Origin: Candidatus Omnitrophica bacterium CG22_combo_CG10-13_8_21_14_all_43_16
GTDB taxonomy: Bacteria > Omnitrophota > Gorgyraeia > Gorgyraeales > Gorgyraeaceae
DNA: 40,061 bases
Assembly (NCBI GenBank): GCA_002771475.1
Contig: PCTH01000001.1
Span: 1 to 40,061 of the forward strand
Direction: 5' to 3'
The notes beneath the pieces were generated by a model, which saw only the letters and a program-made list of their open reading frames with translations, had not been told where the DNA came from and searched no databases. Below, piece by piece: positions 18,359 through 40,061 of the stretch. A program made the position numbers and the translations under genes. Numbering within the stretch: position 1 is the first letter of the stretch; every line of letters begins with the position of its first letter.

Positions 18359-18706
18359 TCTTCCCGGCCGGCAGCCTACGAAAAGACGCTCGGACGCCCC
18401 AGCGAGGCGTCCTTCGCTCCGCGCCGATTCTCGTTCGTCCTGCGGCAGCTGGGGTCTGAGGCGCCTTAGAAAAATTTTGCCAAATGTCCGCAAGGGATTA
18501 CAGCAAGCAAATGGCGGAACTGACCGAGCCAGCTTTTCCATCGATTGTTTATTCATATATACGGCGAGGGAATTCCGGCAAATTTGCGAGCTGTAAACCG
18601 TAGCGGACGGCAAAATTATTTCAGCGCCGAATGGCCCCAGCTGCCGCAGGACACCCTGCCCGCTCGAATCGCCGAGGCTTTTCTTTAGGCCTGCCGGCCG
18701 GGAAGA
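18359..18706. mobile_element. MITE-like element with terminal inverted repeats, enlarged copy (C1)
   Basis: The 434-base gene-free gap between pilP and the acyltransferase is filled by this element. Its ends are imperfect inverted repeats: TTCCCGGCCGGCAG-CCTACG, then AAAAGACGCTCGG on the left, and the complement of TTTTCTTTAGGCCTGCC then GGCCGGGAA on the right. Between the arms is an inner inverted-repeat unit (18437-18652). The arms match copy C2 at 22677 (GACGCCCC-GCGAGGCGTCCT, CGCCGATTCT, GCCCGCTCGAATCGCCGA). It encodes no credible protein and carries no transposase. Lying at the end of the pil operon, it may also terminate transcription. Confidence 0.85.
18437..18652. repeat. Inner inverted-repeat unit nested in element C1
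   Basis: The ends GTCCTGCGGCAGCTGGGG and CCCCAGCTGCCGCAGGAC are perfectly complementary (18 bp). Complementarity continues inward imperfectly (AGAAAAATTTTGCC / GGCAAAATTATTTC; GTCCGC / GCGGAC). The 216-bp unit lies where copy C2 has only a 23-bp hairpin stretch. It could be a second mobile palindrome or a structured RNA. Confidence 0.75.
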
Positions 18707-21468: not shown

Positions 21469-22881
21469 CTATAATGCTTCCCGCCACAAAGAAGTTGTCA
21501 ATGTTATGCTCAATCCTGTATTGAATCCCTGTATAGAGCTATGATTTACCTTTGTATTATCTTTAGTTAAATCTCCTCCCTGGCCGAGAGAATCAAACCT
21601 GTTTCCGCTGAGATTACCTGTCAAATCAAGGTTAGTGCCGATTGTAACATCGTCTCCGAAAACAAATCCCGTGATAGTAGTATTATTGCCTAAAACCACA
21701 TCGCCTGGAGATAATAATATAACGCCTTCTCCGGCGCCGGCCCCGCTGCCGAGGACAATACCTGCCCTCAAGTCAATATCTGAAGAAGAATAAAATGTCA
21801 CAGACTTGCCTACGGTCCCATTTACTCTCATAAGCAAAGTGCCGTCAGAAACAACTGTAATATTATCCCCTATATCTACCTCACTCTTTATATCAACCGA
21901 ACCTGTGACAACTATTGTCCCTGAGCCGTTTATATAATCTTTTATTATCGCATTGCCGTTTACATATACAGTCCCTGAAATCGCTTCTGCCTCAAATGTC
22001 CTATTCCCTGCTGGCTGGCCGGAAGCGGTGGTAATAAGGCTATCATAATATGTAGTTGTTAGCGTGGGCTGGGTTACAGTCTGGCTTGCATATTCAGTAG
22101 TATCCCCTGAAATATTCGTGCCATTCCCTACGCTGATTTCGCCCGTAGCTGAGACATTGCCGGTTATAGTGCAATTCCTCCCTATATCTAAATTCCCTTT
22201 TATAAAAATATCCCCTGCTATCGTCTGATTTCTATTGATGTCGGTGTCAATACTCCCATTCCCTCCTCCATAAAATAATGCAAAATCCGCAAAAGTAGTT
22301 CCTGCGCCTGCAGCCTTTGTAATATGCTGTGTAATGACACGCTGAACTGAATTTCCGTCCCATCCGGTAACCTTGCCCGTACTGGTAACATCTATTGAAT
22401 CCGTTGCCTGGTTTGAATAAGTAATGGTAAATGTCCCATTGCCAAATGCCTGATTTGTAAAAACCGCGGGAGGAGTAGCCCAGTCTGCATCAGCTTCCAA
22501 TAATTCAAGATACGATTCCATGCCTGCTGATGCTATAAAAAATGCCTGCTCAGCCTGCATATCAGTGATAGCAGAGATATTTCCGGACGACATAAAAGAC
22601 GCTATCAGCAATGCAAGTGTGGACACTATAAGCATCACTATGACTACCGCCACTAGCGATAAGCCTTTATTGCATCTTGCCAGCCCTGGCAGACCTAAAG
22701 AAAAGCGTCGGCGATTCGAGCGGGCACGGTGCCACGACGCGAATAGCGTCGAGGCGAGCAAGAATCGGCGCCCGAGCGAAGGACGCCTCGCAGGGGCGTC
22801 CAAGCGTCTTTTCGTAGGTCTGCCAGGACTGGCAAAAAATTTAGAAATTCTTCGTCGAAGCGTCTGATTGCAAATAAACAT
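21469..22881 (-). CDS. PilX-like minor pilin with repetitive beta-helix (bactofilin-like) domain; start region replaced by a repeat
   Basis: The core begins at NKGLSLVAVVIVMLIVSTLA (residue 71 on), a prepilin-type helix with a G-L cleavage site, then EQAFFIASAGMESYLELLEA as in PilX. Residues about 190-440 are a repetitive domain (AGDIFIKGNLDIGRNCTITG, GSVDIKSEVDIGDNITVVS, GVILLSPGDVVLGNNTTITG) resembling bactofilin or other left-turning beta-helices. The first 70 residues come from the 3' end of the previous gene in another frame and from element C2, giving an implausible Arg-rich leader. No clear Shine-Dalgarno or natural start is left, so the gene may use a repeat-borne start or be inactivated. 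It lies among minor pilins and before pilM-N. Confidence 0.75.
   Translation of the reverse strand: MFICNQTLRRRISKFFASPGRPTKRRLDAPARRPSLGRRFLLASTLFASWHRARSNRRRFSLGLPGLARCNKGLSLVAVVIVMLIVSTLALLIASFMSSGNISAITDMQAEQAFFIASAGMESYLELLEADADWATPPAVFTNQAFGNGTFTITYSNQATDSIDVTSTGKVTGWDGNSVQRVITQHITKAAGAGTTFADFALFYGGGNGSIDTDINRNQTIAGDIFIKGNLDIGRNCTITGNVSATGEISVGNGTNISGDTTEYASQTVTQPTLTTTYYDSLITTASGQPAGNRTFEAEAISGTVYVNGNAIIKDYINGSGTIVVTGSVDIKSEVDIGDNITVVSDGTLLMRVNGTVGKSVTFYSSSDIDLRAGIVLGSGAGAGEGVILLSPGDVVLGNNTTITGFVFGDDVTIGTNLDLTGNLSGNRFDSLGQGGDLTKDNTKVNHSSIQGFNTGLSITLTTSLWREAL
22677..22835. mobile_element. MITE-like element with terminal inverted repeats (C2)
   Basis: The ends are TTGCCAGCCCTGGCAGACCT, then AAAGAAAAGCGTCGG, and the complement of TTGCCAGTCCTGGCAGACCT then ACGAAAAGACGCTTGG, about 33-bp imperfect terminal inverted repeats. 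The 159-bp copy matches C1 without its inner unit and lies in the opposite orientation. It starts 5 bases after the stop of the upstream pilin and runs into the prepilin leader of the next gene. Confidence 0.85.
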
Positions 22882-31314: not shown

Positions 31315-31437
31315 TGTCATTGCGAGGCCGTCGAAGGCGGCCAAAGCAATCTCAAGAGATTCCTCGCTTCGCTCGGAATAAGTTCGGTCATATAACTTAC
31401 GTCTGCCTTCGGCCTCCGTAAGTTATGGCCTCACTTA
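31315..31437. repeat. Family A composite repeat (A7)
   Basis: It begins TGTCATTGCGAGGCCGTCGA, continues through AAAGCAATCTC, the shortened shared arm GGAATAAGTTCGG, and a hairpin with arms ATAACTTACG / CGTAAGTTAT, and ends CCTCACTTA. The stop codon of RR3 lies inside the hairpin. Confidence 0.85.
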
Positions 31438-31786
31438 TTTTTTCCATCAAATCCTTTGTATCAAAAGGCTTTTCTATAAAAAACGCTATCTTCTCAAGTA
31501 TAAAAAGATCCCCCACTTTTTTCTTTTCCTTTGCGCTGAGTATAATCACCGGGATATCGGCATATCTTTCGTTTTTCCTCATCTCCCTTAATACGCTGTA
31601 GCCGTCTATATTCGGAAGCATTATATCCAGTAAAATTACATCCGGCTTTTTTACGTTTAAAATCTCCAGCAGCTGTTTCCCGTCTCCCGCGTGCTTAAAC
31701 TCATAGCCTTCGGATTCTATCCTGATCTTGAGCATCTTTGCTAAATCCGAATCGTCATCAACCAGTAAAACTATTTTTTTATCCAT
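31397..31786 (-). CDS. Single-domain response regulator receiver (RR3), C-terminus extended by a repeat
   Basis: A lone CheY-like receiver: acidic pocket LLVDDDSDLAKML, phosphoacceptor in VILLDIMLPNIDGYSVLREM, Ser in ILSAKEKKKVGDLF, Lys in FFIEKPFDTKDLMEKI. It shares the atypical KEKKKVGDLFILEKI segment with RR1. The natural domain ends near EKISE; the last ten residues (AITYGGRRQT) are translated from repeat A7. Its start overlaps the histidine kinase gene by 8 bases, so the pair is translationally coupled and RR3 is the likeliest phosphotransfer partner. Confidence 0.92.
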   Translation of the reverse strand: MDKKIVLLVDDDSDLAKMLKIRIESEGYEFKHAGDGKQLLEILNVKKPDVILLDIMLPNIDGYSVLREMRKNERYADIPVIILSAKEKKKVGDLFILEKIAFFIEKPFDTKDLMEKISEAITYGGRRQT

Positions 31787-33311
31787 TTTTCCCCTCCAGA
31801 ATGCTGTTAATCTTATTGATTAAAACATTCGGCTCAAAAGGTTTTTCAATAAAACCGGCTGCGTTCAATTTTTTTATCGACTCTTTTGTATTCTTATTCA
31901 CAAGCGCGGAAAATACGACTATAGGTATATTTTTTGTAGCAAAATCTGATTTCAGCCTCTTTGAAACCTCGAAACCATCCACTTTCGGCATCATGAGATC
32001 CAGCAGTATAAGATCAGGCTTATTTTCTTTGGCAAGCCCCACGCCTGTATCACCGTCCGTGGCAGTAATAGTGTCAAAGCCTGAATTCTGCAGCCTGAAA
32101 GAAAGCATAGACGCAAGCGCTTCTTCGTCATCTATTATAAGAAGCACCTTTTTTGAAGTTACCTGATTTTTGCCGGTTTTTAAGTCTTCTTCCGCTTTTT
32201 TTAAAAGCTCTTCTTTATCCATGGCTTCATCCGGATAAACAGAAATACCGAAAATAAGAGGAACTTTGATATTTCCTTTCAGCCTTCTTATTATCGCCAT
32301 AGATCCCGGCCTGTCTGCGCATGCGATTATTACAACGCACTCCTTTTTTTTGCATCTCACCACTTTATCTCCCGGCCCCCTTATTGTATTTCTTATAATA
32401 CCCTCTATTCCAGCGGTAATATCCTCAGTCTTATATTTTGCGTCTTTTATGTCGAAGACCATAAGGCTGATCCTGGCATCATTATGCTTTGCTTTCTCTA
32501 TTGCCTCTTCTATTAAAAAATCAAATTCTTCATCCTTTTTATACAGAGGTATGGTAAATATAAACTTGCTTCCTATGTCAGGCTCCGAAACAACCCAGAT
32601 GTCCCCTCCGTGCAGCTCTATCATGCCTTTTGAAATAGCCAGTCCAAGTCCTGTGCCGCTATGCTTACGCGTCATGCTTGTATCCAGGGGGCTGAAATTC
32701 CTGAACAGATTTTCCTTGTCTTCCGCAGGTATACCGATCCCGCTATCCTCTATAGTGACTTTTATAAAATTTCTGTTCTTTATGGTTTCTTTCGCGCTGG
32801 ATACGTTTACCTTTCCATTGACTTTGTTGAATTTTATTGCGTTCGATATGAGATTTTTAAGCACCTGGCCGATCCTGTCCGGATCAAACCATGTAGGCTC
32901 TACGGACCCCCCCAGAGAAATGGTGAATTCTATATTTTTCTGCTCAGCCAATATTTTAGTAGACGCGCAAACATCCTTTATAACATCGTTGATGTTTAAT
33001 TTTCTTTTAAACATCAGGATCCTGCCTGCCTCCAGCTTGGAAAGGTCCAGTATATCTATTATAAGTTTTGTCAGGCGTTCTATGTTATTTTTGGATATGG
33101 TGAGGAATTTTTTTTGTTCTTCGCTGATAGGCCCGGCTACTCCGTCCAGAACAAGAGAAACGCTTTCTTTGATAGAGGTAAGCGGGGTCCTCAATTCGTG
33201 GGATACGACAGATATAAACTCAGATTTTATTCTGGATAATTTTTCAATTTCCTCATTTGCTTTCGAGAGTTCTTCTTTCAGGTCCTGTATTTCTTTTTCC
33301 AGATCCGCCAT
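31779..33311 (-). CDS. Soluble hybrid histidine kinase with C-terminal receiver
   Basis: The protein has no membrane segment. An N-terminal coiled coil (residues 1-28) leads into HisKA with SVVSHELRTPLTSIKES (His38), then HATPase_c with the N-box LKNLISNAIKFNKVNG, G1 DSGIGIPA and G2 GTGLGLAISKGMIELHGGD. Residues about 255-375 form an unassigned alpha/beta domain (ARISLMVFDIKDAKYKTEDI, GDKVVRCKKKECVVIIA) that resembles a degenerate GGDEF domain without its active-site motif. A receiver ends the protein (LIIDDEEALASML, LILLDLMMPKVDGFEVSKRL, GFIEKPFEPNVL). It starts 9 bases after kdsC and precedes three lone receivers and pilB. Its signal input is unknown. Confidence 0.9.
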   Translation of the reverse strand: MADLEKEIQDLKEELSKANEEIEKLSRIKSEFISVVSHELRTPLTSIKESVSLVLDGVAGPISEEQKKFLTISKNNIERLTKLIIDILDLSKLEAGRILMFKRKLNINDVIKDVCASTKILAEQKNIEFTISLGGSVEPTWFDPDRIGQVLKNLISNAIKFNKVNGKVNVSSAKETIKNRNFIKVTIEDSGIGIPAEDKENLFRNFSPLDTSMTRKHSGTGLGLAISKGMIELHGGDIWVVSEPDIGSKFIFTIPLYKKDEEFDFLIEEAIEKAKHNDARISLMVFDIKDAKYKTEDITAGIEGIIRNTIRGPGDKVVRCKKKECVVIIACADRPGSMAIIRRLKGNIKVPLIFGISVYPDEAMDKEELLKKAEEDLKTGKNQVTSKKVLLIIDDEEALASMLSFRLQNSGFDTITATDGDTGVGLAKENKPDLILLDLMMPKVDGFEVSKRLKSDFATKNIPIVVFSALVNKNTKESIKKLNAAGFIEKPFEPNVLINKINSILEGKNG

Positions 33312-33320
33312 CCCATCTCC

Positions 33321-33836
33321 TCATTTCGCGTATTCGCCGGTCACCTTATGCCATAAATCCTGTGATTTCAGAATAATCTCTATCAATTCACGAACAGCGC
33401 CTTTGCCGCCGCTTTTTTTTGTAACATAATGGCAGGAAGCCTTGACTTCATCTATTGCTTCCGGAGGCGCAATGCTCAAACCGGCCCTTTTTAAAACCGG
33501 CAGATCTATTAAGTCATCTCCCATGAAGCATACCTCTTCGTCTTTTACCTTAAATTTTTTAATCACTTTTTCGTAGATTTTAAGTTTTTTATAATCCGAA
33601 TAAACATTTGCCACATGCATATCCTTTGCCCTGCGCTTTACTATCCTGGTCTTTTTTGCTGTAATAATAACTGATTTGATGCCTGCCCTGTAGAGGAGCG
33701 TCATGCCGAATCCGTCATAAACGCTGAAACATTTTATCTCGTCCCCGAAATTATCGTATATGATGCGGCTGTCTGTCAGTACCCCGTCTACATCCAGTAT
33801 CAATAATTTTATTTTTTTCGCCCTGTCTTCTATCAC
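33321..33836 (-). CDS. kdsC: 3-deoxy-D-manno-octulosonate 8-phosphate phosphatase
   Basis: KdsC removes phosphate from Kdo-8-P to give Kdo. It is a short HAD-family enzyme (171 aa, no cap) with LLILDVDGVLTDSRIIYDN (nucleophile Asp), KCFSVYDGFGMTLL, the Ser/Thr motif SVIITAK and the C-terminal metal site CFMGDDLIDLPVLK. Related KdsC-like and N-acylneuraminate enzymes exist, but the kdsA-kdsD-kdsC-kdsB neighbourhood settles the role. Its start overlaps the kdsD stop by 4 bases. Confidence 0.95.
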   Translation of the reverse strand: MIEDRAKKIKLLILDVDGVLTDSRIIYDNFGDEIKCFSVYDGFGMTLLYRAGIKSVIITAKKTRIVKRRAKDMHVANVYSDYKKLKIYEKVIKKFKVKDEEVCFMGDDLIDLPVLKRAGLSIAPPEAIDEVKASCHYVTKKSGGKGAVRELIEIILKSQDLWHKVTGEYAK

Positions 33837-34792
33837 ACCAGCCCCGCCTTTAATAAATCCTGCACATCCACCAGGCCTATAGCCCTTTTGTTTTCATCCA
33901 CTATGGGTATTTCGTCAATCTTATATTCCTGCAAAATCCTCAACGCCTCTACGGCAAGACAGCCTTTTTTGAGCGTCCTGGGATTTTTTGTCATCACATC
34001 CTTTACCTCTTTATTGAGGAGCATTGGGTCTATGCCCAGATGCCTCCTCAAATCTCCGTCTGTAAAAATCCCTTTTACCCTTCCGGCTTTATCAATCACT
34101 GTCGCGCTGCCTGCCCTGGAAGCTGTGATGGCAAGAAGCACGTCCTTTACCTTTCTGGATTTCTTAACCATAGGATTGCCTGAGCCCTTGCGCATTATGT
34201 CTTCAACCTTCAACAACAATTGCTTCCCAAGGCTCCCTCCGGGGTGCAAAAACGCGAAATCGCTTTTCTTGAACTTTCTTTTATCCATGAGAGCTGCGCA
34301 TAGCGCATCTCCCATCGCAAGCATGCTGGTAGTACTCGCCATTGGAGCCAATCCCAGAGGACACGCCTCAACCTTTATTGACACATCCAATACAGCGTCG
34401 CTATTTTTCGCCAGGCTGGACTTTTTATTCCCTGTAATGGCTATTAACCTGGATCCTATCTTTTTTATCTGAGGCACAAGATCCACGACTTCTTGCGTCT
34501 GGCCGCTATTCGAGATAACTATCACCACGTCTTCTTTTATCACCCTGCCCAGGTCTCCGTGTATGGCTTCTGCCGAATGAAGCCACAGGCTGGGCGTGCC
34601 TGTAGAAGAAAGTGTGGCTGAAATCTTCTGGCCTATAATGCCGGCCTTGCCCATGCCCGTTACCACAACCCTTCCCTTGCAGGCATATATAAAATCCACG
34701 GCCTTCTCGAAATCCTTGTCTATATGGGAAATCAGCTCTCTTATTGAGTCAGCTTCAATTTTCAAAACTTGTTTAGCGCGTTTTTTTAGCAT
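33833..34792 (-). CDS. kdsD: Arabinose-5-phosphate isomerase
   Basis: KdsD interconverts ribulose-5-P and arabinose-5-P, the precursor of Kdo. The SIS domain spans about residues 35-165 (GRVVVTGMGKAGIIGQKISA, TLSSTGTPSLWLHSAEAIHG, VVIVISNSGQTQEVV). Two CBS domains follow at about 200-319 (AGRVKGIFTDGDLRRHLG, EYKIDEIPIVDENKRAIGLV). The 319-aa length is standard for KdsD/KpsF. It lies 6 bases after kdsA and overlaps kdsC, so the Kdo enzymes are made together. Confidence 0.96.
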   Translation of the reverse strand: MLKKRAKQVLKIEADSIRELISHIDKDFEKAVDFIYACKGRVVVTGMGKAGIIGQKISATLSSTGTPSLWLHSAEAIHGDLGRVIKEDVVIVISNSGQTQEVVDLVPQIKKIGSRLIAITGNKKSSLAKNSDAVLDVSIKVEACPLGLAPMASTTSMLAMGDALCAALMDKRKFKKSDFAFLHPGGSLGKQLLLKVEDIMRKGSGNPMVKKSRKVKDVLLAITASRAGSATVIDKAGRVKGIFTDGDLRRHLGIDPMLLNKEVKDVMTKNPRTLKKGCLAVEALRILQEYKIDEIPIVDENKRAIGLVDVQDLLKAGLV

Positions 34793-34798
34793 ATTCGC

Positions 34799-37965
<3,167 letters not shown>

Positions 37966-37968
37966 AAA

Positions 37969-38937
37969 TTATTTTAACCTTTCCATCAGTTCCTTCTGCG
38001 TAATGACAGCTATGCCTACCTTGCCGACCACAATCCCTGCCGCAATATTTGAAATATAAGCGGCGTCCTTCATATCTACGCCAAGCGCGAGCGCCAGGGT
38101 AAAAACGCTGATCACGGTATCTCCTGCGCCGGAAACATCAAATACCTCCTGCGCAACAGTTGGTATATGGGTAACAGCTCCGTTCTTTTGAAAAAGCTGC
38201 ATGCCGTTTTCCCCCAGCGTCATTAAGACGCCTTCGCAATTCAATTTCTTAAGAAGCGCTTTGCCTATCTTTAATATGCTCTTATTGTCCCTGGCCTTGA
38301 TGCCGGCTGCCTGACCTGCTTCATGATGGTTAGGGGCTATGGCTGTCACGCCTTTATAATAAGAAAAATGCTCTTCCTTTGGATCCACGGTTATAATTTT
38401 TTTCTTTTTCTTTGCTATGCTTAAGGCCTCTTTCAAAAGCTTTGCCGAAATAACGCCTTTGCCGTAATCCTCTATGACAATAGCGTCCATTTCTTCAATT
38501 ACGCCCTTGACATAGTCTATAATCTTATCCAATACCCCCGCTGAAATGCCTTCTATCTTTTCCCTGTCAATCCTAACCACCTGCTGATGATGCGCCACCA
38601 CCCTGGTTTTTAATGTTGTGGGCCTTGCGTCATCCGTGATAACACCGTCTGTATTTATGCCTTTTTCCGTCAGGCCTTCTTTAAGTATCCCTGCCCTCTC
38701 GTCATTTCCGGCAACGCCAGCTATATACACCTTTGCGCCCAGCGAGGCAATGTTATTCGCCACATTAGCAGCCCCGCCCGGCATAAATGACTCTGACTTA
38801 ACCCATACCACAGGCACCGGGGCTTCAGGAGAAATCCTGGAAACCTCTCCCCACACAAATTCATCCAGGATCAAATCGCCTATCACAAGGATCTTTACAT
38901 TGCTGAATTCGGGTATTATCTTTTTTAATTTTTCCAT
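37969..38937 (-). CDS. D-glycero-beta-D-manno-heptose-7-phosphate kinase (HldE N-domain / RfaE1 type)
   Basis: This PfkB-family sugar kinase phosphorylates heptose-7-P at C1 for ADP-heptose synthesis. It has VIGDLILDEFVWGEVSRISP, FMPGGAANVANNIASLGA (substrate region), ITVDPKEEHFSYYKG, and the catalytic anion hole FDVSGAGDTVISVFTLA. At 322 aa it covers only the kinase half of bifunctional HldE; the adenylyltransferase half is not in the window and must be a separate gene. It sits between the DHS-like gene and kdsB, consistent with a core-oligosaccharide operon. Confidence 0.94.
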   Translation of the reverse strand: MEKLKKIIPEFSNVKILVIGDLILDEFVWGEVSRISPEAPVPVVWVKSESFMPGGAANVANNIASLGAKVYIAGVAGNDERAGILKEGLTEKGINTDGVITDDARPTTLKTRVVAHHQQVVRIDREKIEGISAGVLDKIIDYVKGVIEEMDAIVIEDYGKGVISAKLLKEALSIAKKKKKIITVDPKEEHFSYYKGVTAIAPNHHEAGQAAGIKARDNKSILKIGKALLKKLNCEGVLMTLGENGMQLFQKNGAVTHIPTVAQEVFDVSGAGDTVISVFTLALALGVDMKDAAYISNIAAGIVVGKVGIAVITQKELMERLK

Positions 38938-38939
38938 TT

Positions 38940-39887
38940 TTATATTTTTTCTATTATCGCCTGGCCGAGAAGCGGGAGCAATATTTCATGCTGCCCTATT
39001 ATATTGTAACCTTTGCCGCCTGACCTTACGGGCCTCGTAACCACATTCTGATGGGGCCTGTAATGATGTATCATATCAAAATTACACGCTGTAAAATCCT
39101 TGACTTCGTAGCCAAGGTTTCTTGCTGTATTTATTGCCTTTAAAAATACTTCCGGCAGTATCACCGAAGAACCTATGTTAAGCACCACGCCTCCGCCCTC
39201 TAAAGCCGCGACCTCTTCTATTAAATTATAAAAATCTTTTATTGAAGCCTGGCCTGCCGCGCCTGCGTCAAAACTCGGGTGCTGATGTATTATGTCGGTC
39301 CCTATCGCAATGTGCACCGTAACCAGGACATCTTCTTTCACGGCATTATATAAAATACTTTGATTCCTGAAAGAAAGTTTCTCGTCATTTATCACTTCGC
39401 CTATTGCCCTGCCTGCTCCTATATCTTTTTCAACAGCTTCTTCAAGAGCGCCGTTTATATATAAAGCTGTCTCCTTTGCCATGCCGAAACTCCCGTCTTC
39501 CAGGGCATCAGACACGTCCTCTGAAGTCCTGCCTATGAGGGCTATTTCAAAATCATGTATTGCGCCTGCGCCGTTCAAAGAAACAGCCGTTATTACCTTT
39601 TTTTTCATCAATTCTATGATTACCGGATTCAGGCCGCATTTAATAACATGGGCGCCCATCATGAATATGACGGGTTTTTTCTTATTACGGGCTGAGACAA
39701 TAGCGTCTACCACTGCCTTAAAATCAACCCCTGCGGATATATTCGGAAGAGAGCTGTAGAAGTCAGAAAAGGTGGCAGCTTTTGAAGGCGGCTTGGCAAA
39801 GTCTTTATACCCTACCTTGCAAATCCTTTTTGATATAGGGTAAGTCTTTAGCTTGCCTAGGTTTATCTTGATTTTATCGTGCGCCAT
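38940..39887 (-). CDS. Deoxyhypusine-synthase-like protein, catalytic Lys not conserved
   Basis: The 315-aa protein resembles the deoxyhypusine synthase superfamily (NAD-binding Rossmann-like fold): VIFMMGAHVIKCGLNPVIIE, SLNGAGAIHDFEIALIG, and LEGGGVVLNIGSSVILPEVF. In true DHS the GGGVV motif is followed by the catalytic Lys (GGGVVKHH in the human enzyme); here it is GGGVVLN, with Leu at 236. No eIF5A substrate is expected in bacteria. A similar gene occurs beside heptose genes in Geobacter (from memory). It lies 2 bases before the heptose kinase gene and is the first gene after a strong promoter. Function unknown; a role in LPS-core or heptose metabolism is inference from context. Confidence 0.75.
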   Translation of the reverse strand: MAHDKIKINLGKLKTYPISKRICKVGYKDFAKPPSKAATFSDFYSSLPNISAGVDFKAVVDAIVSARNKKKPVIFMMGAHVIKCGLNPVIIELMKKKVITAVSLNGAGAIHDFEIALIGRTSEDVSDALEDGSFGMAKETALYINGALEEAVEKDIGAGRAIGEVINDEKLSFRNQSILYNAVKEDVLVTVHIAIGTDIIHQHPSFDAGAAGQASIKDFYNLIEEVAALEGGGVVLNIGSSVILPEVFLKAINTARNLGYEVKDFTACNFDMIHHYRPHQNVVTRPVRSGGKGYNIIGQHEILLPLLGQAIIEKI

Positions 39888-40004: not shown

Positions 40005-40061
40005 GGCAAGCCTACGAAAAGACGCTCGGACGCCCCAGCGAGGCGTCCTTCGCTCATTGCT
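40005..40061. mobile_element. Family C MITE-like element, truncated by window edge (C3)
   Basis: The sequence TTGCCAGCCCTGGCAAGCCT, then ACGAAAAGACGCTCGGACGC and CCCAGCGAGGCGTCCTTCGC, matches the left arm of C1 almost exactly and the ITR of C2. It continues beyond the window. It lies upstream of the promoter at 39909. Confidence 0.8.

Follow-up and report, generated by a model that had tools for sequence, protein, structure and literature searches.

A protein family with a predicted deoxyhypusine synthase-like fold displaces HldD in Omnitrophota and is probably a heptose 6-epimerase

INTRODUCTION

L,D-heptose is widespread in the lipopolysaccharide (LPS) inner core of the Gram-negative bacteria that have been studied. 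The known last step in making its precursor is catalyzed by HldD, which epimerizes C6 to generate ADP-L-glycero-D-manno-heptose. Deoxyhypusine synthase (DHS) acts on spermidine by NAD-dependent oxidation, forming its intermediate on a catalytic lysine that is K329 in the human enzyme, and the DHS superfamily is known for the chemistry of spermidine and ornithine.

The two subjects meet in a gene family typified by GSU2086 of Geobacter. By locus number this gene lies between hldE (GSU2085) and gmhA (GSU2087), and transposon insertions in the three genes lead to similar defects of growth on electrodes (−3.2, −3.1 and −3.7 log2); the authors note that read-through from the cassette limits polar effects (PMC5585712). 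In the open-access literature we found GSU2086 named only in that study, no published function for the family, nothing that joins deoxyhypusine synthase and heptose, and nothing on a replaced HldD that concerns this family. Nor did we find there any description of HldD being displaced by an unrelated protein, and this finding is new. Here we describe a member of the family in an LPS operon of an Omnitrophota genome, and propose that it performs the epimerization normally carried out by HldD.

RESULTS

The locus in the window

The window analyzed is one entire contig of 40,061 nucleotides (G000:C64), from an Omnitrophota genome that is ~91% complete and comprises 92 contigs with a total of 1.23 Mb. 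The genes of the operon, all on the reverse strand, are as follows.

38940..39887, minus strand: GSU2086-family protein, the proposed replacement of HldD; 315 amino acids, ATG start (NF052581, AlphaFold2 model, Foldseek)
37969..38937, minus strand: hldE-I, heptose-7-phosphate kinase (TIGR02198, 393.5 bits against a cut-off of 345; adjacency kept in relatives)
37222..37965, minus strand: kdsB, CMP-Kdo synthetase (profile search)
35610..37220, minus strand: pyrG, CTP synthase, supplying CTP for KdsB (named from sequence; kept in relatives)
34799..35617, minus strand: kdsA, Kdo-8-phosphate synthase (named from sequence; kept in relatives)
33833..34792, minus strand: kdsD, arabinose-5-phosphate isomerase of the KpsF/GutQ family (profile search)
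33321..33836, minus strand: kdsC, Kdo-8-phosphate phosphatase (TIGR01670, above cut-off)

The initial annotation took 38940–39887 to be a gene, and the reading frame is indeed real. It stands 2 bp upstream of hldE-I, which is followed by kdsB, pyrG, kdsA, kdsD and kdsC. The gene was also said to lead its operon; that is so here only in that the contig stops 174 bp upstream, and relatives have several heptosyltransferase-like genes of the GT9 family ahead of it. The order preserved in Omnitrophota is thus GT9 (waaF-like) genes, GSU2086, hldE-I, kdsB, (pyrG), kdsA, kdsD and kdsC, with a median gap of 24 bp between GSU2086 and hldE-I in tblastn matches. On another contig of the same genome gmhA and a stand-alone ADP-heptose adenylyltransferase (RfaE domain II) adjoin each other. 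No GmhB-like match was found in this genome at an E value of 1e-20.

Two further features of the contig were observed. Directly downstream of kdsC, at 31397–33311, a histidine kinase with a C-terminal receiver domain is followed by several stand-alone response regulators, and the kinase is kept in place in close relatives (L002, L003, L007 and L015). A GC-rich, hairpin-like repeat of 30 bp is present in three copies, at 18385–18414 (minus), 22779–22808 (plus) and 40021–40050 (minus), with 0–2 mismatches where none would be expected by chance. All lie outside the main genes, and no exact copy was found in the loci of relatives. One copy is 11 bp from the end of the contig and may be the cause of the assembly break.

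Family membership and fold

The protein matches the NCBIfam model NF052581 with 408.5 bits (cut-off 250) over positions 2–300 of 301. 'GSU2086 family protein' is the only annotation of the model, which states no function. Neither the protein alone nor a profile of 15 sequences gave a match when searched against the sequences of the PDB, even with E-value limits of 1 and 10, so that the link to DHS is reached only by comparison of folds. An AlphaFold2 model built from 15 relatives is of moderate quality (pLDDT 79.4, pTM 0.78). Its best Foldseek match in the PDB is the Pyrococcus DHS 7cmc (E = 6e-9, probability 1); a K329A variant of DHS, 8a0f, is also in the PDB. ArgZ and an archaeal LOR/SDH protein rank behind the deoxyhypusine synthases, for which the TM-scores are about 0.55–0.6. 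Comparison of profiles by hhalign with true bacterial DHS-family proteins gave an E value of 1e-6 and a probability of 91, with only residues 68–261 aligned. The prediction of a DHS-like fold is therefore sound, and at this level the original description of the protein as DHS-like is borne out.

The protein is nevertheless not a DHS. The Pfam DS family (PF01916) does not match it at an E value of 1e-3, whereas it gives 317 bits for a bacterial DHS-family control. It scores 20.4 against PF21570, below the cut-off of 27; members of a second subfamily discussed below are above it, at 30.0 and 30.3. No relative of the family was found in phages. True DHS-family proteins recognized by Pfam DS are common in Bacteroidota genomes (L066–L083); they are weakly matched by the GSU2086 model, and their best NCBIfam match is 1,9-bis(guanidino)-5-aza-nonane synthase.

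The catalytic lysine

The initial annotation held that GGGVV is kept and that the catalytic lysine of DHS is replaced by leucine. This followed the wrong lysine. Alignment by phmmer of a bacterial DHS-family protein with human DHS places the lysine of GGGVVK at K287, and the catalytic K329 within a SWGK motif 42 residues further on. Two positions of the protein are relevant.

39180..39182, minus strand: codon of Leu236, counterpart of human DHS K287 and not of K329
39033..39035, minus strand: codon of Arg285, tentative counterpart of DHS K329, read from the C-terminal motif and not from a computed superposition

Across 81 members of the family residue 236 is variable (L, I, M, V, G or A), while residue 285 is arginine in 80 and lysine in one. 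The SWGK motif was not found in any of the 81. Arg285 thus appears to stand at about the position of K329, and judged from the alignments the true catalytic lysine seems to be absent from the family. The argument made from Leu236 falls, yet its conclusion that this is no working DHS stands. The GGGVV string is likewise present, at residues 231–235, but its conservation is weak; of its residues only G233 is invariant, with N237 and G239 just beyond. Also invariant are H111, D112, E114, E123, N145, D198, D218, E246, K250, R256, N257, D271, R277 and H300.

These data bear on the suggestion that the protein is a polyamine enzyme, akin to deoxyhypusine or homospermidine synthase, that lies in an LPS operon by chance. 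In its favor are the DHS-like fold and a profile that weakly resembles those of DHS-family proteins from bacteria. Set against it are the lack of a Pfam DS match and of the SWGK motif, heptose partners that are kept in several phyla, and the absence of polyamine genes from the neighborhoods that were seen. We regard it as scarcely credible, and polyamine chemistry, offered earlier as an alternative, finds no support.

Mutual exclusion of the GSU2086 family and HldD

The same 285 Omnitrophota genomes, mostly draft, were searched for GSU2086, HldD, GmhA, the adenylyltransferase and GmhB, with HldD defined as a TIGR02197 score above 274.6 bits. GSU2086 is present in 108 genomes (107 above cut-off and one split gene) and HldD in 157. 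They occur together in just 10 where 59.5 would be expected, and one of those 10 has a copy of the second subfamily; 98 genomes have GSU2086 only, 147 HldD only, and 30 neither. Fisher's test gives P = 5e-37 for the exclusion when relatedness is ignored, and P = 3e-8 once stratified by taxonomic family. None of the 65 genomes of the families f8, f14, f16 and f23 lacks both genes.

The rest of the pathway is indifferent to which is present. GmhA is found in 92 and the adenylyltransferase in 93 of the 98 GSU2086-only genomes, compared with 141 and 142 of the 147 HldD-only genomes, and the share is thus about 95% whichever gene is present. The family represented in the window therefore occurs where the adenylyltransferase is present and HldD is missing, as would be found for isofunctional proteins. 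The window protein itself has no match to TIGR02197, and the best score anywhere in its genome is 128.8 bits (contig C80).

Could the anti-correlation be an artefact of phylogeny, incomplete genomes or the score threshold, with GSU2086 having some unrelated role? The pooled P value takes no account of relatedness and most of the genomes are drafts. Against this, the exclusion persists within families, and the genera g14, g18 and g38 each contain both states, with sister species swapping one gene for the other. On a tree of the adjacent kinase 13 independent pairs differ in GSU2086, and HldD differs the opposite way in ~10 and the same way in none, in a sample that favors opposite-way pairs because genomes with neither gene were left out. 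Nor is a hidden HldD being missed: in 42 GSU2086-only genomes the best SDR protein scores no more than 155 bits, so the absence is not an effect of the 274.6-bit threshold. Together with the second phylum and the exchange within an operon described below, this makes an artefact very improbable.

A different possibility is that the protein replaces another heptose step, the GmhA isomerase or the GmhB phosphatase, or partners the kinase in a regulatory and non-catalytic role. It is the immediate neighbor of hldE-I, and the genome of the window lacks a GmhB-like match at the threshold given above. However, gmhA is near-universal (270 of 285 genomes), and a GmhB-like HAD protein is present in 79 of 98 GSU2086-only and 154 of 177 other genomes, which is nothing like the exclusion of HldD. 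On these distributions replacement of GmhA or GmhB was dropped. Moreover, neither phosphatase nor aldose–ketose isomerase chemistry would be expected of a Rossmann NAD-type fold, and the large number of charged residues that are invariant points to an active site. We consider this group of explanations improbable.

Of the 30 genomes with neither gene (including G002, G034, G038, G079 and G152), 27 have gmhA and 26 the adenylyltransferase. Either they have a third epimerase, or they use D,D-heptose only, or the relevant contigs are missing. Since gmhA is retained in 27 of them, absence of HldD does not require GSU2086.

A second phylum and an exchange within the operon

The exclusion recurs in Bacteroidota, the phylum of an Ignavibacteria relative. 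In 248 genomes GSU2086 is present in 12 and HldD in 130, without overlap; HldD in 0 of 12 carriers compares with a base rate of 130/248 (P = 1e-4). All 12 carriers have the adenylyltransferase, and a waaF-like gene is nearby in most of the GSU2086 copies.

In the Omnitrophota family f4 (L178–L180) HldD lies 41 bp upstream of hldE-I, in the slot of GSU2086, and that exchange aside the operon matches that of the window gene for gene. It has the GT9 heptosyltransferase-like genes that accompany GSU2086 in other Omnitrophota. This arrangement is particular to f4. The idea that HldD has this slot everywhere was rejected; the remaining HldD genomes that were examined have the operon with no GSU2086 in the slot, and carry HldD elsewhere. 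Displacement of HldD by the GSU2086 family is thus well supported.

Other genomic contexts

The association with hldE, which the initial annotation had proposed to check, is conserved across phyla. Other arrangements were also observed. In family f49 (L096–L100) the GSU2086 gene is not beside hldE, and in L098 and L099 it stands between genes for an AAA-type (MgsA-like) ATPase and an SDR-type sugar epimerase/dehydratase-like protein.

A second subfamily (B; loci L046:13444-16525, L101:8860-15255, L102–L105 and L047:14044-17474) is found on a Solidesulfovibrio plasmid and as paralogues in Omnitrophota that are 53–57% identical to the Solidesulfovibrio copy. Its neighbors encode a nucleotidyltransferase-PfkB HldE-like protein and a GmhA-like SIS isomerase; at the two loci that were read, L046 and L101, there are also genes for a radical SAM protein and transketolase subunits. 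This looks like a separate pathway to a heptose-type sugar. On a Chloroflexota plasmid, where the subfamily lies in a region of sugar ABC-transporter genes, the order is HAD, GSU2086, HldE-type kinase and GmhA-type isomerase, with no nucleotidyltransferase nearby.

Such contexts provide the case for the main rival explanation, that the protein makes a different heptose. By this account it would convert D,D-heptose, as the phosphate or the ADP form, to another epimer or to a keto or deoxy sugar by an NAD-dependent reaction, giving a core that lacks L,D-heptose and has no need of HldD, and the exclusion would follow equally. The glycan clusters that contain subfamily B include transketolase, radical SAM and pseudaminic acid-type genes, and a Chloroflexota copy has a sugar-uptake context, so that the family may act on more than a single sugar. 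An unchanged product nevertheless fits better with the f4 operon, where the same genes, heptosyltransferase-like ones included, accompany HldD, and with the swapping of the two genes between sister species of one genus. We judge a different heptose to be unlikely, if a good deal less so than the other alternatives.

DISCUSSION

The GSU2086-family gene is probably that of a heptose-precursor enzyme of the LPS core, an NAD-dependent C6-epimerase of DHS-type fold that replaces HldD; we put the probability of this at roughly 0.6. A second 6-epimerase is the best reading because the protein is part of the pathway, its predicted fold is the NAD-type one of DHS, and it is present where HldD is not. 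The protein had at the outset been suggested to perform an undescribed NAD-dependent step on core sugars. The link to heptose across phyla and the alternation with HldD place it in the core-sugar pathway, while the use of NAD is predicted from the fold.

In the proposed mechanism, NAD would be held in the DHS-type pocket and would oxidize the heptose at C6. The hydride would then be given back to the opposite face, converting the D-glycero to the L-glycero form. The lysine imine of DHS would not be used. The substrate might be ADP-heptose, as for HldD, or alternatively heptose 7-phosphate or 1,7-bisphosphate. The Chloroflexota cluster has no nucleotidyltransferase nearby, and action on a heptose phosphate is therefore possible; this counts against action on ADP-heptose only.

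On balance we lean to a broader view, that the DHS superfamily contains a widespread, unrecognized family of sugar epimerases that has alternated with HldD many times. L,D-heptose would then have a second route, by an enzyme not homologous to HldD, and the step might take place on the heptose phosphate before nucleotide activation. If epimerization is indeed the function, it would explain core heptose in the many Omnitrophota and some Bacteroidota that lack HldD, together with the role of GSU2086 in Geobacter. It would also give a function to the family, correct the calling of an 'incomplete heptose pathway' in many genomes, and show the DHS fold at work on sugars as well as amines.

How does the family compare with known systems? 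With HldD (RfaD, GmhD; TIGR02197) it shares the pathway, the need of the same genomes and, in f4, the operon slot. Yet homology between the two was not detected; HldD belongs to the extended SDRs, whereas the GSU2086 protein is predicted to have a DHS-type fold. With DHS (PF01916, TIGR00321) and 1,9-bis(guanidino)-5-aza-nonane synthase it has in common that fold and an N-terminal region resembling the NAD site, but it lacks the Pfam match and the SWGK lysine, and its context is one of heptose and not polyamines. The C-terminal domain of ArgZ/AgrE (PF21570) and the archaeal ornithine cyclodeaminase of LOR/SDH type also match in fold, but over only about 65–95 residues, and GSU2086 has no arginine or ornithine context.
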